A DNA stretch of 64,000 nucleotides, taken from assembly GCF_001542855.1 (NCBI RefSeq), contig NZ_LNBY01000001.1:186001-250000 (forward strand), given 5' to 3'. The notes beneath the pieces are model-generated. The model did no database searches. It saw only the letters and a program-made list of their open reading frames with translations, and had not been told where the DNA came from. The translations under genes were made by a program, and so were the position numbers. The DNA is from Erythrobacter sp. AP23 (lineage in GTDB: Bacteria > Pseudomonadota > Alphaproteobacteria > Sphingomonadales > Sphingomonadaceae). Of the stretch, positions 51,957-61,833 are shown one piece after another. Each line of letters opens with the position of its first letter. Within the stretch, counting starts at the first letter, position 1.

Positions 51957-51985
51957 TTGCGAATCGATCCGATATGGAACATAAT
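51957..51985 (+). promoter_or_regulatory. imuA promoter
   Basis: A -35 TTGCGA (51957-51962), a 17-bp spacer and a -10 CATAAT (51980-51985) place the transcription start at about 51992, two bases before the imuA ATG. The message is therefore leaderless or nearly so. Confidence 0.55.
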
Positions 51986-51991
51986 GAGAAC
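51977..51991 (+). promoter_or_regulatory. LexA (SOS) box of imuA
   Basis: GAAC (51977-51980), seven bases and GAAC (51988-51991) form the alphaproteobacterial LexA box (GTTC-N7-GTTC on the other strand). It covers the -10 region and ends two bases before the imuA ATG, ideally placed for repression by LexA and induction by DNA damage. Confidence 0.85.
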
Positions 51992-51993
51992 GA

Positions 51994-52791
51994 ATGAGTC
52001 GTTTCCCTATGTCCCGACCAGAGCTTGCCTCATTGCCGTTCATGGCCTTCGAAGACGTCGCTGCGCTGTCCGCGCGGCGCAACGCACGCTGGCGACCGGG
52101 GTTGGCGGCAAATCAGGGGCTGGCGCTGCACAACGAAGTCTTTGCTTCCTCGTGCGAGGGGGTGGGGGCGGCTGCGGCATTGGCACTGGCGCTCGACGAT
52201 TGGCGCAGCCTGCCGCGCGAGGATGTCGGCGAAGCGCAGGACCGGCGTAGCGTACTGTGGGTCCAGACGCGCGAGGCAGTGCGGCGGGTCGGACGTCCCT
52301 ACCGTGCGGGATTGCCCGAAGAATTGCAGGCGCGGGTCATCCATGTGCTGGCGGAGAAGGCGGAAGATGCGCTCTTCGCGCTCGAGGAAGGGTTGCGCTG
52401 CCGCGATCTCGCCTTCGTGGTGGGGGAGATCGCGGGCAATCCCAAGCCGCTCGATCTCACCGCCTCGCGCCGCCTGACGCTGGCGAGCGAGAAGCACGGC
52501 GTGCCGCTTTTTCTCGTCCGGATCGATGCGGCGCGCGACCTGTCCTCTGCACGCATGCGGTGGGAGATAACCTCGGCCCCCTCGCTGTCGCCGCACTGGA
52601 ATGCGCAGGCTCCCGGGGCGCCGCGCTGGCGGGCCGAACTGTTCCGTGCGCGTTCGCATGCGCCAGGCGAGTGGGTGCTGGCTGAGGAGCAGGGCTCTCT
52701 CACTGCGAGCAAGGCCCGGCGCGAGGCCGACGAAGCGATGGCCGACTGGACGGCGGGATTGTGCCTGCGACACCCGCCGCGCCGGGCGTGA
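51994..52791 (+). CDS. imuA: Translesion mutasome protein ImuA
   Basis: A 265-residue RecA/SulA-like protein of the SOS mutasome. It has the RecA-like core without an obvious Walker A: GLALHNEVFASSCEGVGAAAAL, RSVLWVQTREAVRRVGRPY, EEGLRCRDLAFVVGEI, and a C-terminal tail with RWRAELFRARSHAPGEW that contacts RecA and ImuB in characterised systems. The LexA box directly before it and imuB overlapping its end support the name. An in-frame ATG five codons further in is an alternative start. ImuA, ImuB and DnaE2 together copy past lesions and cause damage-induced mutation. Confidence 0.88.
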   Translation: MSRFPMSRPELASLPFMAFEDVAALSARRNARWRPGLAANQGLALHNEVFASSCEGVGAAAALALALDDWRSLPREDVGEAQDRRSVLWVQTREAVRRVGRPYRAGLPEELQARVIHVLAEKAEDALFALEEGLRCRDLAFVVGEIAGNPKPLDLTASRRLTLASEKHGVPLFLVRIDAARDLSSARMRWEITSAPSLSPHWNAQAPGAPRWRAELFRARSHAPGEWVLAEEQGSLTASKARREADEAMADWTAGLCLRHPPRRA

Positions 52792-54362
52792 GCGTGCCGC
52801 CTGCGGGCATATCGCGTTCCCGCCGCATCCTGTCGATTTGGCTTCCCGCGCTGGCGATGGATCGCTGGAGCATGGCGATGGGCGAGAGCGGGGCTGCCCT
52901 CGATTCTGGGCCGCTGGTGCTGATCGGCGATACCGCGCATGGGCCGCGGATCGAGGCGGTCAATCGCGCCGGGGCCGCTGCCGGTGCGCGCAGGGGCATG
53001 ATGCTCGCCGATGCGCGCACGCTGTGTCCCGAAATCGCCACCGCGCCTTCCGATCCGGCGGGCGATCTGACTTTCCTCGAAGATCTCGCCATCTGGGCGC
53101 AACGCTGGGGACCGTGGTCGGCGCTCGATGCGCCCGACGGCGTGCTGGTCGACGTGACTTCGGTGCCGCATCTCTTTGGTGGCGAGAAACATCTGCTGGC
53201 CGACGTCCACGAGGCCTTCGCCAAGCGCCGACTGTCCATTCGCGCCGCCATCGCGCCTACCGCCGGTGCAGCCTGGGCGCTGGCGCACTACGGCCCCGAT
53301 GCCGCGATCGTGGAGGGGCACGATGCGATCGAGCGGGCCTTGGCCGACCTGCCCGTGGCCGCGCTTCGCCTCGACGAGGACGTGGTCACGGTGCTGCGCC
53401 GCCTCGGCCTCAAACGCATGGGCGAGATCGCCACCATTGGGCGCGATGCGATCCAGCGGCGGTTCCGCAACCGCAAATCGCCCGCCGCCAATCCGCTGAT
53501 CCGTCTCGACCAGTTGCTCGGTCGCGTGCCCGAGCCGCTGCTGCCCGTCGTCCCGCAACAGATACCGCTGGTCCAGCGCCGGCTGTTGGAGCCGATCCGC
53601 TACCGGGCATTGCTCGACCGCGTGGTGGCCGACCTTGCCGCGGACATGGCGCGCGAACTCGAAGGGCAGGGGAAGGGTGCGCGGCGACTCGAACTGCAGC
53701 TGTGGCGAGTCGATGGCAAGGTGGTGGTGCGCCGTCTCGAAATGGCCGCCGCCACGCGCGATCCGGCGCATATCGTCCGCCTGTTCGCCGCACGTCTCGA
53801 CGATATCGACGCAGGATTCGGGATCGAGATGCTGCGCCTGCGCGCCAGCTGGGCCGAGCCGCTTGCTCTGGAGCAGAGCGATATCGAGACCGCGGCGGAG
53901 ACCCGGGGCACCAGCCTTGCCGCCTGTATCGACCGGCTGACGGTCCGTCTTGGCGCGAAGGCGGTCAGTCGCCCGGTGCCCTTCGCCAGCTATATCCCCG
54001 AGCGCGCGCAGCGCTGGCAGCCGCCGCTCGAACCCGAACCGGCTTCGCAGGGGCAATTGGCCTTCCATGCACGGCCGCTCAAACTGCTCGATAATCCTGA
54101 GAAGATCGCGGTGCTTTATGCAACGCCCGACGGCCATCCGCAGCGTTTTCGCTGGCGCGGGCAGGTGCATGAGGTTGCGCGGGTGGAAGGGCCCGAGCGC
54201 ATCGCGCCCGAATGGTGGCGCGAACGGCGTGGGGCGCGCCTGCGCGATTATTACCGGATCGAAGATGGGGAAGGGCGGCGCTACTGGATCTACCGCCAGG
54301 GTATCGTCGGTGATGGGCGCGGCGGTGCGCCCGACTGGTACCTGCAGGGATTGTGTGCCTGA
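52788..54362 (+). CDS. imuB: Translesion mutasome protein ImuB (Y-family polymerase-like)
   Basis: A 524-residue protein. The first 350 residues resemble Y-family polymerases: RRILSIWLPALAMDRW, VNRAGAAAGARRGMMLADAR, VLVDVTSVPHLFGGE and the little-finger region after residue 340. The acidic residues needed for catalysis are not in their usual places, as expected for ImuB, which acts as an adaptor to the beta clamp and DnaE2. The GTG at 52788 overlaps the imuA stop (GTGA) and is preferred to GTG 52761. The C-terminal 150 residues (WWRERRGARLRDYYRIEDGEGRR, in part) form the tail typical of ImuB. Confidence 0.9.
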   Translation: MSVPPAGISRSRRILSIWLPALAMDRWSMAMGESGAALDSGPLVLIGDTAHGPRIEAVNRAGAAAGARRGMMLADARTLCPEIATAPSDPAGDLTFLEDLAIWAQRWGPWSALDAPDGVLVDVTSVPHLFGGEKHLLADVHEAFAKRRLSIRAAIAPTAGAAWALAHYGPDAAIVEGHDAIERALADLPVAALRLDEDVVTVLRRLGLKRMGEIATIGRDAIQRRFRNRKSPAANPLIRLDQLLGRVPEPLLPVVPQQIPLVQRRLLEPIRYRALLDRVVADLAADMARELEGQGKGARRLELQLWRVDGKVVVRRLEMAAATRDPAHIVRLFAARLDDIDAGFGIEMLRLRASWAEPLALEQSDIETAAETRGTSLAACIDRLTVRLGAKAVSRPVPFASYIPERAQRWQPPLEPEPASQGQLAFHARPLKLLDNPEKIAVLYATPDGHPQRFRWRGQVHEVARVEGPERIAPEWWRERRGARLRDYYRIEDGEGRRYWIYRQGIVGDGRGGAPDWYLQGLCA

Positions 54363-54372
54363 GACGAAAAGA

Positions 54373-54398
54373 AAGGGCCGCCCCGAAGAGCGGCCCTT
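54373..54398. terminator. Bidirectional terminator after imuB
   Basis: AAGGGCCGC (54373-54381) pairs with GCGGCCCTT (54390-54398). It lies between imuB and the convergent lipoprotein gene, so imuAB is not read through to the rest of the SOS module. Confidence 0.7.
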
Positions 54399-54415
54399 GG
54401 CGTGAAAAACTCCGA

Positions 54416-55006
54416 TCAGTTCGCGCTGTAGGGCAGCGAGCTGTGATGGAGCACGATCTTGAGCTCGCCGTCATCGCCGCGCTCATAGGCGAAGGAATAC
54501 TCCACCTTCGTTTCGTTGCCGTCGGTACCGGTGAAATAGTAATTGCCCATCGCCACGGCCATGTCGCCGCTATCGGAGATGACCGTGCCATTATTTTCCC
54601 AGCGAACCCCGGTATAGGGTGCGATGGCGAAACCGCCGTCTTCGGTTCCTTCGGTGCCGACGAAATAGCTGAGCGCCTCGCCGTCATTCTCGCGGAACTG
54701 ATCCTCCGCAGCCAGCGTGGGCTTGAACAGGATCGTCTGGTCGTCGCCATAGGCATAGTGCGTGGCGATGTGTTCCTGCGCGCGGGCGCGATAGTCGCCT
54801 TCTTCGGTGTAGGTCTGGCCGATGGCCACGATGCCTTCGCCCCAGGCCTGCTGCGCCGCTTCGACCTCGGCTTCGGTAATGGGGTCGGCTGCTACCGCCG
54901 TTTCGGCGGTTGCACTGCCGTCTCCGGCTTCCGTGGTCGTTTCGCTGCATGCAGCAAGAGCCAGCGAGCTGCCGGCAAGGATAGTCGTAAGCAAGATCTT
55001 GGTCAT
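54416..55006 (-). CDS. Lipoprotein with SnoaL/NTF2-like domain
   Basis: A 196-residue exported lipoprotein. The signal sequence ends in LALAAC (Cys20). A short Thr/Ala-rich linker follows, then an NTF2-like domain of about 150 residues (ITEAEVEAAQQAWGEGIVAIG, then HYAYGDDQTILFKPTLA and SGDMAVAMGNYYFTG). Such folds are mostly small-molecule binding or structural. It is the only gene of opposite direction within the SOS region and has its own terminator. No LexA box lies on its side of the promoter region, so it may be unrelated to the SOS response. Confidence 0.8.
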   Translation of the reverse strand: MTKILLTTILAGSSLALAACSETTTEAGDGSATAETAVAADPITEAEVEAAQQAWGEGIVAIGQTYTEEGDYRARAQEHIATHYAYGDDQTILFKPTLAAEDQFRENDGEALSYFVGTEGTEDGGFAIAPYTGVRWENNGTVISDSGDMAVAMGNYYFTGTDGNETKVEYSFAYERGDDGELKIVLHHSSLPYSAN

Positions 55007-55189
55007 GTCTTTCCCTTCTCAGGATTGATTGACGCCCGGATGGGCACCGAAGGGCAGCATGTGAGAATATGGCTAACCCCCCAGTATACGTCCGACATCA
55101 CGAGCAAAAGCTCGCCAGAGGGGCCCGGTCCGCGTCGCATTTACGCGCGAATCGAATTTCGGTTCCCGTCGAGCGAATAGCTTTTGATA

Positions 55190-55218
55190 TTGGCGAATCC
55201 CGCGGCGGAACATATAAG
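55190..55218 (+). promoter_or_regulatory. Promoter of the rSAM-udgX-dnaE2 unit
   Basis: A -35 TTGGCG (55190-55195), a 17-bp spacer and a -10 TATAAG (55213-55218) place the start of transcription at about the ATG at 55225, so the message is probably leaderless. The -10 lies exactly within the LexA-box spacer. Confidence 0.6.
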
Positions 55219-55222
55219 GAAC
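55208..55222 (+). promoter_or_regulatory. LexA (SOS) box of the radical-SAM gene
   Basis: GAAC (55208-55211), the spacer ATATAAG and GAAC (55219-55222) repeat the arrangement seen before imuA. Two bases (GA) separate it from the ATG, as at imuA. Repression by LexA would cover the -10 box fully. Confidence 0.87.
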
Positions 55223-55224
55223 GA

Positions 55225-56469
55225 ATGTCCGCGCGAACCATCCTCCAGAAACTCGAAATTCTCGCCGATGCGGCGAAATACGATGCATCGTGCGCCTCGT
55301 CGGGTACGGCCAAGCGCAATTCGATGGGCGGGAAGGGGATCGGCTCGACCGAGGGGATGGGCATCTGCCACGCCTATGCGCCCGATGGTCGCTGTATCAG
55401 CCTGCTCAAGATACTGCTGACCAACCACTGCATTTTCGATTGCCACTACTGCATCAACCGCAAGAGTTCGAACGTGGCGCGCGCGCGGTTCACGCCGCAG
55501 GAGGTGGTCGACCTCACATTGGCCTTCTACCGGCGCAATTATATCGAGGGGCTGTTCCTGTCCTCGGGCATCGTGAAGAGCTCGAATCACACGATGGAAC
55601 AGCTGGTAGAAGTCGCGCGCATCCTGCGGGAAGAGCACGATTTTCGCGGCTATATCCATCTCAAGACCATCCCCGAGGCGGATGCCGAGATCGTCCACCA
55701 GGCGGGGCTTTATGCTGATCGCGTGTCGATCAATGTCGAACTGCCGACCGACAGTGGGCTTACCCGTCTCGCGCCCGACAAGGATGCGCGCCAGATCGAA
55801 GGCGCGATGGGGAAGGTCAAAAGCGACATTACTGAGCTGAAAGACGCGCACAAAAGATTCAAGCACGCTCCGCGCTTCGCGCCCGCGGGCCAGTCGACCC
55901 AGATGATCGTCGGGGCCGATGCGGCGAGCGATGCGGACATCGTCGGCAAGGCCAGCAGGCTTTACGACAGCTTTGGTTTGCGCCGGGTCTACTACAGCGC
56001 CTTCTCACCGATCCCCGATGCCAGCGCGGTGCTGCCGCTGAAACGCCCGCCGCTGATCCGCGAACACAGGCTCTACCAGTCCGACTGGCTGATGCGCTTC
56101 TATGGCTATAAACCGGCCGAGGTGATGCAGGCGACCGAGGCGGACGGAAATCTGCCGCTCGATATCGACCCCAAGCTCGCTTGGGCGCTGAAGTTTCGTG
56201 AGCAATTCCCGGTCGATGTGAACCGCGCGAGCAAGGAGCAATTGCTGCGCGTGCCGGGACTTGGCGTGAAGGCGGTGGGCAGGATCCTCGCCAGCCGCCG
56301 CCACCGCAATTTGCGGCTCGACGATGTGGCGCGACTGACCCAGTCGATCACAAAGGTGCGTCCCTTCATCTGCACCGTCGACTGGCGGCCCGTGACCCTC
56401 ACCGACCGCGCCGATTTGCGCAGCCTGCTCGCGCCCAAAACCGAGCAGTTGGAGCTGTTTGCCGCATGA
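55225..56469 (+). CDS. UDG-linked radical-SAM protein, putative DNA repair or modification enzyme
   Basis: A 414-residue radical-SAM enzyme of the TIGR03916 type. The iron-sulfur cluster motif is CIFDCHYC (CX3CX2C) at about residues 70-77. The upstream part shows GIGSTEGMGICHAY. A radical-SAM barrel follows, with GLFLSSGIVKSS and HLKTIPEADAEIV. Two helix-hairpin-helix-like segments near the end (VNRASKEQLLRVPGLGVKAVGRI) suggest DNA binding. The reaction is unknown. The start ATG 55225 is set by the LexA box and promoter just before it; the longer frame upstream is not coding-like. UdgX follows after a palindromic repeat. Confidence 0.88.
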   Translation: MSARTILQKLEILADAAKYDASCASSGTAKRNSMGGKGIGSTEGMGICHAYAPDGRCISLLKILLTNHCIFDCHYCINRKSSNVARARFTPQEVVDLTLAFYRRNYIEGLFLSSGIVKSSNHTMEQLVEVARILREEHDFRGYIHLKTIPEADAEIVHQAGLYADRVSINVELPTDSGLTRLAPDKDARQIEGAMGKVKSDITELKDAHKRFKHAPRFAPAGQSTQMIVGADAASDADIVGKASRLYDSFGLRRVYYSAFSPIPDASAVLPLKRPPLIREHRLYQSDWLMRFYGYKPAEVMQATEADGNLPLDIDPKLAWALKFREQFPVDVNRASKEQLLRVPGLGVKAVGRILASRRHRNLRLDDVARLTQSITKVRPFICTVDWRPVTLTDRADLRSLLAPKTEQLELFAA

Positions 56470-56485
56470 GGTTCGTTCTTTCCTT

Positions 56486-56552
56486 CCGTTCGTGTCGAGC
56501 GAAGTCGAGACACTCTGCCCGAATGCCTCTCGACTGCGCTCGAAGCGAATGG
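56486..56552. repeat. Long inverted repeat between the rSAM gene and udgX, copy 2
   Basis: Arms of 25 bp (56486-56510 and 56528-56552) contain the same TCGAGCGAAGTCGAGA core as the gap-pgk copy, with a few changes on the right arm. The element ends eight bases before the udgX ATG, and its right end lends part of the ribosome-binding site GGAGG, so the hairpin could hide it. Confidence 0.88.
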
Positions 56553-56560
56553 AGGTGGCT

Positions 56561-58009
56561 ATGACCGCACTCCAACACGTCAAGCTCGGTATCTATTACG
56601 TGGTGCACCTGCCCGAAGCGGACGATTTCGACTTCTGGCGCGAGCGGGCGCGCGCGCTGGTCCAGTGCGAGATCCCGCCAGATCGCATCGCCTGGGTCGA
56701 GCCAAGCGGCAGCGGCGATCTCTTTACGCATGGGGAGCGGCGCATGCCGGTACCGTCCGACGACGCCCGCCAGGTCCGCGCAAGCAAGCGCTTCGTGAGC
56801 CTGGCCCGCAACGCCATCCTCCATTCCGAGCCCGAACGTTTCGCGCTGCTCTATCGCCTGCTGTGGCGGCTGCAGGCGACCCCGCGCATCATGGAGGACA
56901 AGGCCGACCCCGACGTGCGGCGGGTGGAAGACCTCGCCAAGAACGTGCGGCGAGACAGCCACAAAATGCACGCCTTCGTCCGCTTCCGCCTGGTCGAGAA
57001 CGAGGATGAGGATAGCGAGGCGGGCGAGCATTACGTGGCCTGGTTCGAACCCGATCACCATATTTTGCGCGCTAATGCTGGCTTCTTCATGCGGCGCTTT
57101 GCCAACATGCGCTGGTCGATCCTGACCCCGCGCGGAAGCCTGCATTGGGACGGTGAGACCATGTCCGAGGGCCCGCCCGCCGAGCGGAGCGATGCGCCCG
57201 GTGGCGATCCGATGGAGGACCTGTGGCGCAGCTATTACGCCTCGATCTTCAACCCCGCGCGGCTGAAGGTCGGCGCGATGCTCAAGGAAATGCCCAGGAA
57301 ATACTGGAAGAACATGCCGGAGGCCGCGCTCATCCCCGAGCTGGTGGCGGGCGCGCAGAAGCGGGAAAGCGCTATGGTCGAGGAAGGTGCGTTGGAGTTC
57401 GAGGAACGGCCCGACACGCTGGCAACCATCGACAAAGCCATCCACGCCTGCCGCAAGTGCCCCATCGGCCAGCTCGACAACCATGCGGTGATGGGCGAGG
57501 GACCGCAGGACGCAGCACTCATGATCGTCGGCGAGCAACCGGGTGATCAGGAGGATCAGGCGGGGCGCCCCTTCGTCGGCCCGGCCGGACAATTGCTCGA
57601 TATGCATCTGGAAAAGGCCGGGATCGACCGGCGCGGATCTTACGTCACCAATGCAGTGAAGCACTTCAAATATGTCCAGCGCGGCAAAAGGCGGCTGCAC
57701 CAGAACCCGGGTGCGAAGGAGATCGACACTTGCCGCTGGTGGATCGAAAGCGAGCGCGCGATCGTGCAGCCGAAGCTGGTGCTGGCGATGGGTGCGAGTG
57801 CGGCGCGCGCGATTCTGGGCAAGACGGTGAGCATTGCGAAGGTGCGCGGGCAGCCGATCCCGCTCGAGGATGGCAGCGAGCTGTGGATCACCGCGCACCC
57901 CTCCTACCTGCTGCGCCTGGAGGGGCCTGCGCGAGAAGAACAGGCGCGCCTCTTCGATGCCGATCTCGCCGCGATGAGGGAGCGGCTCGCGGAACTATCT
58001 GCGCCATGA
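56561..58009 (+). CDS. udgX: UdgX-type uracil-DNA-binding protein with N-terminal DUF4130 domain
   Basis: A 482-residue fusion. Residues 1-250 are the DUF4130 / TIGR03915 domain (LARNAILHSEPERFALLYRLLWRL and RDSHKMHAFVRF, then the EMPRKYWKNMPEA stretch, in parts). Residues about 285-480 are a family 4-like UDG fold with Cys residues of a cluster (CRKCPIG) and the UdgX motifs GEQPGDQ at 324-330 and KRRLH at 376-380, whose His380 corresponds to the residue that bonds covalently to uracil-DNA in the mycobacterial protein. It lies behind the radical-SAM gene under the same SOS promoter. Confidence 0.92.
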   Translation: MTALQHVKLGIYYVVHLPEADDFDFWRERARALVQCEIPPDRIAWVEPSGSGDLFTHGERRMPVPSDDARQVRASKRFVSLARNAILHSEPERFALLYRLLWRLQATPRIMEDKADPDVRRVEDLAKNVRRDSHKMHAFVRFRLVENEDEDSEAGEHYVAWFEPDHHILRANAGFFMRRFANMRWSILTPRGSLHWDGETMSEGPPAERSDAPGGDPMEDLWRSYYASIFNPARLKVGAMLKEMPRKYWKNMPEAALIPELVAGAQKRESAMVEEGALEFEERPDTLATIDKAIHACRKCPIGQLDNHAVMGEGPQDAALMIVGEQPGDQEDQAGRPFVGPAGQLLDMHLEKAGIDRRGSYVTNAVKHFKYVQRGKRRLHQNPGAKEIDTCRWWIESERAIVQPKLVLAMGASAARAILGKTVSIAKVRGQPIPLEDGSELWITAHPSYLLRLEGPAREEQARLFDADLAAMRERLAELSAP

Positions 58010-58025
58010 AACCCCTAATGTCCCT

Positions 58026-58109
58026 CGTTACCCCTGCGAAGGCGGGGGTCCAGCCAAGCTTTCGCCGATGCGCGAGGGTGGATGGATCCCTGCCTTCGCA
58101 GGGATGACG
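58026..58109. repeat. Palindromic repeat A before dnaE2
   Basis: Inverted arms CGTTACCCCTGCGAAGGCGG (left) and CCTTCGCAGGGATGACG (right), 84 bases in all, end 22 bases before the dnaE2 ATG. It is a sister of element C inside dnaE2. It separates udgX from dnaE2 and might fold in the message. Confidence 0.85.
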
Positions 58110-58131
58110 GCGGCCTCGAGGCCCGTCCGCC

Positions 58132-61100
58132 ATGCCCGAAAACGACCTCCAGATACCCAAGCGGACGATCGAGCTCGACCCGGACGGCATCGATGCGCCG
58201 CCGCGCAGCCCTTTCGTCGAACTGGGCCTCGTCTCCTGCTTCAGTTTCCTGCGCGGGGCTTCGGATGCGGTCGATCTCGTGCTGCAGGCCCGCAGGCTGG
58301 GATATGACGCGATCGGGATCGCCGATGCCAACACCATGGCCGGCGTGGTGCGCATCCATACAGAGGCAAAAACGCTGAAGCTGAAGCCGCTTATCGGCTG
58401 CAGGATAGAAACGGTCGAGGGTCTCGCCTTTCTCGTCTATCCCACCGATCGCGCCGCCTATGGCCGCCTGTGTCGCCTGATTTCGGCGGGCCGGATGCGC
58501 ACGCTCGACGGCGAATGGCAGGAGAAGGGCGCCTGCGATATCAGCCTCGCCATGCTCGCCGCGCATGCCGAGGGCGTGCAACTCATCCTCCTCCCGCCGC
58601 GCGATCTCGATCAGCGCTTCACCATCGAAATCGAAAGCAACATCATCCCCTTCCGTCACCCCGGACTTGATCCGGGGCCCTGCTTTTCTTCCAGCACTGA
58701 ACCAGAAGAAGCGGGACCCCGGCTCGGGGGCCGGGGTGACGTGGAGAAGGTGGCAATGGACGGAAGTCTGGCCGACATCCTTCCCCATCTTGCCGCCCAG
58801 CTCCCCACACTGCGCCATATCGCTGCGGCCTTCCTCTACACCGACAGCGACATTGCCCGGATCGAGCGGCTCGACGCGCTTGCCCACGCGCATGGCCTCA
58901 CCATCCTCGCTACCAACGATGTGCATTATGCGACGCCCGACCGGCGGCCGTTGCAGGACGTGATGACCGCGATCCGGCACAAGACCACGGTCGCCGCCGC
59001 CGGGTATCTGCTCCACGGCAATGGCGAACGCTACCTCAAGCAGCCCGAGACCATGATCCGGCTGTTCGAGCGCTGGCCGCACGCCATCGCCGCCACGCGC
59101 GAGGTCGCCGATGCCTGCAATTTCAGCCTCGACGAGCTGCGCTACGAATATCCCGAGGAAATCTACCCCGACGGGCAGAGCCCCCAGCAATTCCTCGAAG
59201 GCGAGACCTGGAAGGGGGCGGAGTGGCGTTATCCCGGCGGCTTGCCCGACAGCGTGCGCCAGACGCTCGAGCGCGAGCTGGCGCTGATCGGCAAGCTCGA
59301 GCTTGCGCGCTATTTCCTCACCATCAAGGACATCGTCGATTATGCGCGCGGGGTCGACCCGCCCATCCTGTGCCAGGGGCGCGGCAGCGCGGCCAATTCG
59401 GCCGTGTGCTACTGCCTCGGCATTACCAGTGTCGACCCGGCCAAGCATGCGCTGCTGTTCGACCGCTTCATCTCCGAAGAGCGCAAGGAGCCGCCCGATA
59501 TCGACGTCGATTTCGAGCATGAGCGGCGCGAGGAGGTGATCCAGTACATCTATCGCAAATACGGTCGCCACCGCGCGGGCCTGTGCGCCACGGTGATCCA
59601 TTATCGCCCGCGCATGGCGATCCGCGAGGTGGGCAAGGCGATGGGGCTGACCGAGGATGTCACCGCCGCGCTGGCCAAGACCGTCTGGGGGGGGTGGGGC
59701 CGCGAGATCAGCGAACGCCACGCGGCGGAAACCGGCATGGACGTGACCGATCCGCACCTGCGACGTGTCCTCAAGCTGACCGAGCAAATGATTGGTATGC
59801 CACGCCATCTATCCCAGCATGTCGGCGGGTTCATCCTTACCGAAGGCGCGCTGACCGAGACCGTGCCGATCGGCAATGGCGCCATGCCCGAGCGCACGTT
59901 CATCGAGTGGGACAAGGACGATATCGAGGCGCTGGGCATCCTCAAGGTCGATGTCCTGGCGCTGGGCATGCTGACCTGCATCCGCAAGTGCCTCGACCTG
60001 CTCGACGACCATCACAATCGCCCGCTGACGCTGGCCAGCGTCCCGCGCGAGGACCCTGAAACCTATGCCATGCTGCGCAAGGGCGATTCGCTCGGCGTGT
60101 TCCAGGTCGAAAGCCGAGCGCAGATGAACATGCTGCCGCGTTTGCGTCCGCGTGAATTCTACGACCTGGTGATCCAGGTTGCCATCGTGCGCCCGGGGCC
60201 GATCCAGGGTGATATGGTGCATCCCTATCTCAAACGCAGGCGCGGGGCGGAACAGGTGGTCATACCGGCCCCGAGCCCCAGGCATGGTCCGCCCGATGAG
60301 CTTTCAAGCATTCTCGAGCGCACATTGGGCGTGCCGATCTTCCAGGAACAGGCGATGAAAATCGCGCTCGACGCGGCGAAATTCTCCTCGCTCGAGGCCA
60401 ACCGGCTGCGCAAGGCCATGGCGACCTTCCGCAGCCGCGGCATGGTCGACGAATTGCAGGACATGATGGTCGAGCGCATGGTCCACCGGGGCTACGATCG
60501 CGACTTCGCGCAGCGCTGCTTCAACCAGATCCGCGGCTTCGGCGAATACGGCTTCCCCGAAAGTCACGCGGCCAGCTTCGCACATCTCGTCTATGTGTCG
60601 AGCTGGCTCAAATGCCACTTCCCCGCCGCTTTCGGCTGCGCGCTGCTCAACTCGCAGCCGATGGGCTTTTATGCCCCGGCACAGATCGTGCGCGATGCGG
60701 TGGAGCACGGGGTGACGGTGCTGCCGGCGGATGTGAATTGCTCGCAGTGGGAGTGCACGCTGGAAGAGATTGACGAAGAAATTCCTGCTTCCCGTCGCCC
60801 CTGCGAAGGCAGGGGCCCATCTAACGCTAATTCTTTAGCGTACGCTTATCTGGATCCCCGCCTTCGCGGGGATGACGAACGGGAGGGGCGGGGCAGGATG
60901 GACACCCACATCGCCCTGCGGCTCGGTCTACGACAGGTCGATGGCCTGCCCGAAGCCGTGGCGGCGCGACTGATTGCCGAACGCGAGGAACGCGGGCGCT
61001 ACGCCGACGTCGCGGCGCTGAGAGACCGTGCCGGCATCGGTCCGGCGCATATCGAGCGGCTTGCGAGCGCGGACTGCTTCGGTTCGATCAACCTCTCGCG

Positions 61101-61833
61101 GCGCCAGGCCCTGTGGGATGCGCGCAGCATCGTCGGCGCGCCCGATCTGCCGCTGTTCGCTGCCGCTGCAGCGCGCGACGAGGGCGCAGAGGCCCCACGC
61201 ACGCGGCTTCCCCAGATGCCGCTCAGCGAGGAAGTCGTGGCGGATTACCAGACCACGCGCCTCAGCCTGAAGGCGCACCCGATGGCCTTCCTGCGCGCCA
61301 GCCTGGCCGAGCGCGGCTTCGTGCGCGCCTGCGACCTGCGCGCGCGCAAGCTGCGCTCCATGGTCCATGTCGCAGGCGTGGTGCTGATCCGCCAGCGGCC
61401 CGGTTCGGCCAAGGGCGTGTGCTTCATCACGCTGGAGGACGAAACCGGCGTCATCAATCTCGTCGTCTGGCCGGATCTCAAGGAAAAACAGCGCCGTGTG
61501 GTGATGGGTTCGCGCCTGATGGAGGTGCGTGGACGGGTCGAATATGACGACGAGGTAATCCACGTCATCGCGCAGCACATGACCGATGCGACCGATCAGC
61601 TCTATCGCCTGTCCGACGACATGCTCGATGCGCCGGTCGCACGCGCCGATCATGTCACCTCGCCGCTGCCTGCCAAGGTCAATCCGCGCGACAATCTCAG
61701 GGAAGGCAAGGACGATCCCTATCGACCCGTCGAACCGTGGGAGGAACCGCCGCCGGGCAATCGCGAATGCGGATGGCGGGGCGGGCACCCGCGCGACGTG
61801 AGGATCATTCCCCCGAGCCGCGACTTCCACTAG
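58132..61833 (+). CDS. dnaE2: Error-prone DNA polymerase DnaE2
   Basis: A 1233-residue C-family polymerase, about 150 longer than most DnaE2. It has a PHP domain at the start (FVELGLVSCFSFLRGASDAVDLVL), catalytic aspartates in PDIDVDF (456, 458) and KVDVLAL (607), and the GGFILTEG motif. The tail shows the beta-clamp/OB region (VVLIRQRPGSAKGVCFITLEDETG). Two palindromic repeat elements lie in frame at residues about 175-204 and 888-916 and add foreign peptides. The core remains intact, so it is probably active. With ImuA and ImuB it carries out SOS mutagenesis. Confidence 0.93.
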   Translation: MPENDLQIPKRTIELDPDGIDAPPRSPFVELGLVSCFSFLRGASDAVDLVLQARRLGYDAIGIADANTMAGVVRIHTEAKTLKLKPLIGCRIETVEGLAFLVYPTDRAAYGRLCRLISAGRMRTLDGEWQEKGACDISLAMLAAHAEGVQLILLPPRDLDQRFTIEIESNIIPFRHPGLDPGPCFSSSTEPEEAGPRLGGRGDVEKVAMDGSLADILPHLAAQLPTLRHIAAAFLYTDSDIARIERLDALAHAHGLTILATNDVHYATPDRRPLQDVMTAIRHKTTVAAAGYLLHGNGERYLKQPETMIRLFERWPHAIAATREVADACNFSLDELRYEYPEEIYPDGQSPQQFLEGETWKGAEWRYPGGLPDSVRQTLERELALIGKLELARYFLTIKDIVDYARGVDPPILCQGRGSAANSAVCYCLGITSVDPAKHALLFDRFISEERKEPPDIDVDFEHERREEVIQYIYRKYGRHRAGLCATVIHYRPRMAIREVGKAMGLTEDVTAALAKTVWGGWGREISERHAAETGMDVTDPHLRRVLKLTEQMIGMPRHLSQHVGGFILTEGALTETVPIGNGAMPERTFIEWDKDDIEALGILKVDVLALGMLTCIRKCLDLLDDHHNRPLTLASVPREDPETYAMLRKGDSLGVFQVESRAQMNMLPRLRPREFYDLVIQVAIVRPGPIQGDMVHPYLKRRRGAEQVVIPAPSPRHGPPDELSSILERTLGVPIFQEQAMKIALDAAKFSSLEANRLRKAMATFRSRGMVDELQDMMVERMVHRGYDRDFAQRCFNQIRGFGEYGFPESHAASFAHLVYVSSWLKCHFPAAFGCALLNSQPMGFYAPAQIVRDAVEHGVTVLPADVNCSQWECTLEEIDEEIPASRRPCEGRGPSNANSLAYAYLDPRLRGDDEREGRGRMDTHIALRLGLRQVDGLPEAVAARLIAEREERGRYADVAALRDRAGIGPAHIERLASADCFGSINLSRRQALWDARSIVGAPDLPLFAAAAARDEGAEAPRTRLPQMPLSEEVVADYQTTRLSLKAHPMAFLRASLAERGFVRACDLRARKLRSMVHVAGVVLIRQRPGSAKGVCFITLEDETGVINLVVWPDLKEKQRRVVMGSRLMEVRGRVEYDDEVIHVIAQHMTDATDQLYRLSDDMLDAPVARADHVTSPLPAKVNPRDNLREGKDDPYRPVEPWEEPPPGNRECGWRGGHPRDVRIIPPSRDFH
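58654..58741. repeat. Palindromic repeat B, in frame inside dnaE2
   Basis: Outer arms CGTCACCCCGG and CCGGGGTGACG bracket 88 bases. They encode the peptide RHPGLDPGP and continue in the dnaE2 frame without a stop. The sequence is of a type common in Sphingomonadales intergenic regions. Confidence 0.9.
60793..60877. repeat. Palindromic repeat C, in frame inside dnaE2
   Basis: Arms CGTCGCCCCTGCGAAGGC and GCCTTCGCGGGGATGACG, with an inner hairpin ACGCTAA/TTAGCGT, total 85 bases. It encodes RRPCEGRGPSN to LDPRLRGDD in the dnaE2 frame. It is a sister of element A. Confidence 0.9.

Follow-up and report, generated by a model that had tools for sequence, protein, structure and literature searches.

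Why should the gene of an error-prone DNA polymerase be preceded by genes for a radical S-adenosylmethionine (rSAM) protein and a uracil-DNA-binding protein, instead of directly by imuB? The question is raised by a stretch of 64,000 nucleotides from Erythrobacter sp. AP23 (the window; coordinates below are positions in it), where rSAM, udgX and dnaE2 follow one another downstream of imuA and imuB. Our answer, which we hold with a probability of about 0.68, is that this SOS damage-tolerance region comprises two separable LexA modules, the ImuA-ImuB-DnaE2 mutasome and an rSAM/DUF4130-UdgX module for lesion processing, which would be deployed together.

Two units lie on the forward strand, each behind a LexA box, and their genes and boxes are found as the first-pass annotation had placed them. 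The first comprises imuA (51994 or 52009 to 52791) and imuB (about 52788 to 54362) behind the box GAACATAATGAGAAC at 51977–51991; of 52 loci in which ImuA is matched, 51 have a box close to its start. ImuB is recognised by its open reading frame and by IMS, IMS_C and DUF6504, with IMS and IMS_C exceeding the Pfam cut-offs. The ImuA match reaches 25.8 bits, under the NCBIfam cut-off of 150, and the gene carries its name because of its position before imuB and its relatives at the same place. The second unit stands behind the box GAACATATAAGGAAC at 55208–55222, which stops 2 nt short of the rSAM ATG. It consists of rSAM (TIGR03916, rSAM_link_UDG, 414 amino acids; 55225–56469; 577 bits, cut-off 343.5), a fusion of DUF4130 (TIGR03915; 231.5 bits, cut-off 112.25) with UdgX (TIGR03914; 320.7 bits, cut-off 189.95) at 56549–58009, and dnaE2 (NF004225, error-prone DNA polymerase; 58132–61833; 1369.8 bits, cut-off 939). 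For the fusion gene, the ATG at 56561 is a likelier start than position 56549. Gene order and profile matches agree that dnaE2 is the third gene of a unit after rSAM and udgX, and a terminator scan of the region, with six hits against 6.1 expected, gave none between udgX and dnaE2.

How far does this arrangement extend? Among 196 genomes of the order, surveyed for profile matches over the curated cut-offs, the TIGR03916 rSAM occurs in 82, dnaE2 in 131 and the UdgX family in 84. Thirty-five of the 82 rSAM genomes, all in the window's family, have rSAM, udgX and dnaE2 as three consecutive genes of the same strand (hereafter linked); of the remainder, 44 have dnaE2 elsewhere and three are without dnaE2. 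In this gene-order count, made by hand, the dnaE2 and ImuB rows cover the window's family and one further genome (G002), and where an ImuB match was split, in seven genomes, its outermost coordinates were used to join the parts. The pair is situated between imuB and dnaE2 in 34 of the 82 genomes, which is 34 of the 35 linked ones, imuB of the last (G030) being on another contig. In linked loci imuB is upstream on the same strand, with its match ending 51 to 3338 bp before rSAM (less than 100 bp in five), and the gap from the udgX match to dnaE2 measures 4–24 nt in 28 of the 35. Of the 44 genomes in which rSAM is unlinked and dnaE2 is present, 43 have imuB immediately next to dnaE2. The pair itself mostly stays together: a scan of 2.5 kb downstream of rSAM revealed a UdgX match in 44 of 47 unlinked loci, in some of them after a gap of 0.5–0.9 kb. 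Besides, rSAM and UdgX were seen on separate contigs in G183 and about 3.5–4 kb apart in G044 and G047, and a gene of 158–174 amino acids, by eye hemerythrin-like (HHE), lies between rSAM and udgX in at least six of the 11 unlinked loci examined (L101, L109, L111, L123, L124, L125).

We were interested in whether SOS control belongs to the pair or to dnaE2. The motif GAACN7GAAC has 96 exact sites in the whole genome, compared with 48 for the reversed pattern; it stands 36 bp upstream of the lexA match (box C1:485243-485257; match from 485294) and, in the 20 regions examined of the 96 sites, also near recA, uvrA, a pcrA/uvrD-type helicase and radA/sms. Because of this company the motif is very likely the LexA operator in this genome. 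The boxes exceed chance by their conserved placement, not by their number. Four sites in the window against 1.63 expected, a count reached in 5 of 100 shuffles, are near chance level, and the count was dropped as evidence for SOS control; the other two sites (28634 and 52641) are probably chance matches. Placement is highly constant: counting both orientations, all 35 linked genomes of the order and 46 of the 47 unlinked ones have an exact box no more than 300 bp from where rSAM starts (35 and 41 in forward orientation), so that G002 alone of the 82 lacks one. In genomes of the class outside the order with a full-length rSAM, the box is present in 17 of 18, G359 being without it; L201, whose rSAM is partial, is excluded from this count, and L182, L184 and L187 come from genomes that already figure in the order set. 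Among 80 named loci, the best 80 of 594 candidates, several of them shortened by contig ends and their genomes partly overlapping the order and class sets, it precedes rSAM in 78, whereas background windows, each 315 bases long, contain it in 40 of 3642 cases. Outside the alphaproteobacteria, CTGTN8ACAG lies at rSAM in eight of 11 chosen regions, against nine of 227 windows there, true ones included. A looser pattern of the Escherichia coli type, CTGN10CAG, was discarded since it is present in 40 of the 227 background windows, which removes one of nine hits (G650). As for dnaE2, no exact box was found within 300 bp in either orientation in any of the 35 linked loci. Because the box precedes rSAM in nearly all genomes, linked or unlinked, SOS control would appear to go with the rSAM-UdgX pair itself and not with dnaE2. 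Two side observations concern boxes elsewhere in this genome. An exact LexA-type box overlaps the start of a second radical SAM gene (PA0069 family, first 90 residues matched) at G000:C1:569067-569081 (L162), and three regions with LexA-type boxes (L164, L168, L171) contain small helix-turn-helix proteins, by eye S24-type repressor-like and perhaps of mobile-element origin.

The box is also closely interwoven with the promoter. The consensus of 163 distinct rSAM upstreams whose box points forward has TTG 17 nt ahead of TATAAN, and this hexamer sits in the spacer of the LexA box; the rSAM ATG lies 2 nt past the box in 105 of the 163. The predicted promoter in the window, TTGGCG-N17-TATAAG, occupies 55190–55218 on the forward strand. 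Since the -10 element lies inside the box and the ATG follows at this spacing, transcription would be expected to start on the rSAM ATG, and the mRNA is predicted to be leaderless. Among the excerpted matches listed in a literature search for leaderless transcripts, LexA and SOS, none has this as its subject. In 46 distinct imuA upstreams, the -35 lies 2 nt further upstream than for rSAM and CATAAT overlaps the box; in the window, a sigma-70 promoter for imuA is predicted at 51957–51985 (forward strand), with the sequence TTGCGA-N17-CATAAT and its -10 within the LexA box. The first imuA ATG is located 2 nt past the box in 14 of the 46 and 17 nt past it in another 14, with GAGT conserved in between, and this GAGT after the box suggests the ATG at 52009 as a likelier start than that at 51994. 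A strict consensus scan of the region found three promoters against 1.4 expected; the imuA promoter is among them, and the rSAM promoter, with its -10 TATAAG, is not listed.

Linkage of the pair with the mutasome is lineage-specific but repeated, being observed in three lineages. In five genomes of one genus in another family (G506, G575, G607, G630, G639), found among 14 regions chosen from alphaproteobacterial genomes of a phylum sample (199 genomes), the imu genes diverge from the module with a single exact LexA box between them; imuA-imuB-dnaE2 is complete in four, and the contig of G630 stops after imuA. In G630 (L354) and G639 (L352), DUF4130-UdgX is kept and rSAM is absent, and the gene is still beside the LexA box common with imuA. 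In Henriciella pelagia (L250), the two units are likewise divergent, with two boxes between them. Among the 80 named loci, dnaE2 lies in the flank on the same strand in 13 and on the opposite strand in one (L250). The genomic tie to SOS translesion synthesis that had been proposed for the pair is thus seen in three lineages, but a strict, obligatory link to dnaE2 is not supported, as rSAM lies away from dnaE2 in 44 of 82 genomes and occurs without it in three of 82, and as 26 of the 113 genomes of the family carry dnaE2 and no rSAM.

How may the linked state have arisen? A rapid tree built from 100 rSAM rows requires seven changes of the linked label, compared with 29 when labels are shuffled, and 40 of its 97 inner branches are open. 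The plain reading, not proved, would be a single origin of the linkage followed by several later separations. In ancestors of the clade, rSAM and udgX probably came to stand between imuB and dnaE2 together with their LexA promoter, and dnaE2 would consequently be read from the rSAM promoter. Three genomes of a genus with six linked members sampled (G127, G130, G163) are of interest here: rSAM is absent, and an exact LexA box stands 138, 40 and 22 bp before dnaE2, with the sequence GAACATATAAGGAAC twice and GAACATATAAAGAAC once. We read this box as a putative scar, the leftover rSAM promoter. In G019, G117 and G136, which have no rSAM, the imuB-dnaE2 junction is direct.

What the pair might do was approached through its proteins. 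In the window, UdgX carries the GEQPG motif A (328–332), KRRLH (380–384) with the cross-linking His384, and HPSYLLR (450–456) with the HPS of motif B. Across 34 UdgX sequences, the cross-linking His, motif A and HPS are each conserved in 33, and the full K-R-R-x-H in 25. The His is missing from one row, L063 of the linked genome G030, where UdgX seems frame-shifted in its C-terminal half and the pair may be decaying. The best Protein Data Bank (PDB) matches of the UdgX half are Mycobacterium smegmatis UdgX (6ail, 8iie and others; 41–44% identity in the fold search). The best 50 of 79 fold matches of the fusion at E 0.001 are all of uracil-DNA glycosylase (UDG) type, and on that ground DUF4130 is without a fold relative among them; it has no PDB sequence match found either. 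In the phylum sample, rSAM exceeds the cut-off in 38 genomes, and DUF4130 exceeds its own in every one of them. In 10 of 40 DUF4130 genomes, the frame is shorter than 350 amino acids and no UDG domain occurs in the 6–7 kb read. These make up 10 of 18 chosen regions of 6–7 kb each, eight of them outside the alphaproteobacteria, the choice comprising all ten such genomes over the cut-off, two without rSAM and six others. An rSAM next to a UDG-domain protein, as met in the window, is accordingly not general, and owing to the 38/38 co-occurrence and the missing UdgX in the ten short-frame genomes, it is DUF4130, not UdgX, that these profile matches identify as the constant partner of rSAM.

These counts bear on the mechanism that the first-pass annotation had put forward, in which UdgX traps uracil at stalled forks, rSAM acts on the covalent adduct to alter or release it, and DnaE2 copies past the site. 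With the cross-linking His kept in 33 of 34 sequences, and motif A and HPS likewise, UdgX may still perform the trapping step; the adjacency of the genes in one likely transcription unit and the repeated linkage of the pair with imuAB-dnaE2 would also suit a coupled pathway. The adduct step is weakened because each protein occurs without the other: rSAM-DUF4130 lacks a UdgX domain in 10 of the 18 chosen regions, and DUF4130-UdgX is without rSAM in G630 and G639. As rSAM also lacks dnaE2 in three of 82 genomes, we regard the pathway as a whole as quite improbable.

The rSAM protein, whose family TIGR03916 we take to be COG4277, has the CxxxCxxC motif (C69, C73, C76) and three further invariant cysteines (23, 48, 57), six in all, in 39 of 39 sequences. 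The extra cysteines may possibly hold a second cluster, and this N-terminal triad brings to mind what we take to be the arrangement in sulfur-inserting radical SAM enzymes. The predicted fold has a mean pLDDT (predicted local distance difference test) of 83.5, with values below 50 at residues 23–47, and a C-terminal HhH match falls just under the Pfam cut-off. A different role would be an SplB-like direct reversal of a UV or radical lesion, with UdgX as an add-on for uracil from damaged cytosine, so that the pair would lower the need for DnaE2. The radical SAM domain with its weak HhH match and the optional nature of UdgX fit such a role, and the protein is called SplB-like in an excerpt of PMC3765255. 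On the other side, TIGR03916 is the sole NCBIfam family matched at E 0.001, the best 50 of 83 PDB fold matches of rSAM include no spore photoproduct lyase, and the extra cysteine triad may rather point to the sulfur-inserting enzymes; we hold direct reversal to be unlikely.

On the reading that two separable modules are co-deployed, DNA damage would make LexA leave both operators, and ImuA and ImuB would assist DnaE2 at stalled forks. The UdgX domain would excise uracil in exposed strands and stay covalently on the abasic site as a shield, while rSAM and DUF4130 may carry out a radical reaction on damaged DNA that is independent of UdgX. In this way, the pair would process the damaged template and DnaE2 would bypass the remainder. 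The benefit of linkage would lie in co-expression in step, for which no obligatory protein complex is needed. We tentatively surmise a more specific form of this scheme, which is well short of an even chance: rSAM and DUF4130-UdgX would be an accessory arm of the DnaE2 mutasome, turning lesions and uracil in single-stranded template into shielded or altered sites for bypass by ImuB-DnaE2. Selection for matched dosage would have joined the genes at least three times, once under one shared LexA operator, and in the window's clade DnaE2 would be tied to the pair by one leaderless transcript.

Several points weigh against the co-deployment of the two modules. The existence of both linked and unlinked states shows that the coupling is dispensable. 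In the class sample, 16 genomes from outside the family carry both genes, and by the listed coordinates not one has them within 10 kb of each other. Three of the 47 unlinked loci have no UdgX match in the 2.5 kb scanned, so rSAM and udgX are not always neighbours. Co-occurrence of rSAM and dnaE2 within the family (n=113) is modest, with 78 genomes having both, three rSAM only, 26 dnaE2 only and six neither (p = 0.015, kinship uncorrected). In favour of the two modules, rSAM and dnaE2 co-occur in the class sample: 20 genomes have both, two rSAM only, 121 dnaE2 only and 146 neither, which places dnaE2 in 20 of 22 rSAM genomes compared with 121 of 267 others (p = 2.5e-5, likewise uncorrected for kinship). 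The direction of the rearrangement rests on parsimony, in a tree that leaves 40 of its 97 inner branches open, and the box before dnaE2 in G127, G130 and G163 could predate the pair. In addition, a sequence search of the PDB at E 0.01 gave no relative for rSAM, and its fold matches (the best 50 of 83 at E 0.001) are radical SAM enzymes in general, HydE, LIAS and biotin synthase among them.

Some of these points would equally be explained if the gene order reflected no joint function, the pair and the mutasome merely sharing LexA and rearrangements of SOS genes being tolerated as the promoters are equivalent. The independent retention or loss of rSAM and dnaE2, LexA control of rSAM that is the same whether linked or unlinked, imuB-rSAM gaps anywhere from 51 to 3338 bp, and the missing linkage in the 16 class-sample genomes all agree with it. 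On the other hand, the linkage occurs in three lineages with differing orientations and is kept across 35 genomes in the first, 28 of which have just 4–24 nt separating the udgX match from dnaE2. We consider this explanation a minority possibility that deserves to be taken seriously, and favour the two co-deployed modules.

An unrelated gene on the reverse strand (54416–55006) lies between the two units; its match to metal-independent carbonic anhydrase is below the cut-off (124.8 of 350). A palindromic dispersed repeat at 58026–58109 sits between udgX and dnaE2, where 28 of the 35 linked loci have a gap of 4–24 nt, and a second copy at 60792–60878 lies in frame within dnaE2. DnaE2 contains in-frame dispersed palindromic repeats at two loop sites, around residues 176–205 and 885–920. 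By eye, other repeat-like inserts occur at the same two sites in several of the 34 aligned linked relatives (for instance L062, L064, L083 and L088 at the first, and L068, L071 and L080 at the second). These in-frame repeats in an SOS polymerase resemble Rickettsia palindromic elements.

What was already known of such a system? SRAP/HMCES is a covalent cap that shields abasic sites in damaged single strands, and its fold is unrelated to that of UdgX. UdgX would work like it as an abasic-site cap but, unlike SRAP/HMCES, makes its own abasic site from uracil. SRAP is reported in SOS operons in an excerpt of PMC3765255, and the same 2013 paper places DUF4130 with rSAM and UDG in SOS gene neighbourhoods. 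Excision of uracil by UdgX and its covalent binding to the abasic site are described in excerpts of PMC10359453 and PMC10776899, the former stating that the physiological role of UdgX is largely unknown and proposing abasic-site protection. ImuA-ImuB-DnaE2 is treated as SOS translesion synthesis in the excerpted PMC8072749 and PMC3765255. SOS control of a two-gene UDG/rSAM operon (COG1573-COG4277) is also in print: as excerpted, PMC8565304 predicts the operon for Bacteroidetes, cites it for Verrucomicrobia and alphaproteobacteria, and proposes that the UDG counters misincorporation by SOS polymerases. By description, that operon contains the same two kinds of gene under LexA control, whereas here dnaE2 is the third gene, imuA-imuB stand just upstream, and DUF4130 rather than UdgX is the constant partner. 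The imuA-imuB-dnaE2 cassette has the same three genes with a LexA box before imuA, but in the window it is split by rSAM-udgX and dnaE2 is without a LexA box of its own. With M. smegmatis UdgX, the protein shares the glycosylase domain, GEQPG, the KRR[IL]H loop and HPS, but here it is fused behind DUF4130 and encoded beside a radical SAM protein. The Deinococcus literature, in its excerpts, deals with SplB and other cassettes and not with the rSAM-UdgX pair. In the literature searched, no paper was found that joins UdgX with dnaE2 or radical SAM, or treats rSAM-udgX-dnaE2 as one unit, an earlier mention being possible in older Caulobacter, Verrucomicrobia and cassette studies. Thus, SOS control of the pair and its place in SOS neighbourhoods were already known, and what appears to be new is its insertion, in 34 of the 82 genomes, between imuB and dnaE2.

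In the alphaproteobacteria examined, fused UdgX loci carry a near-universal LexA box and stand beside an error-prone polymerase in three lineages. UdgX thereby gains a concrete genetic setting, namely uracil or abasic sites during SOS translesion synthesis, and DUF4130 as the constant partner of rSAM redirects the biochemical question.

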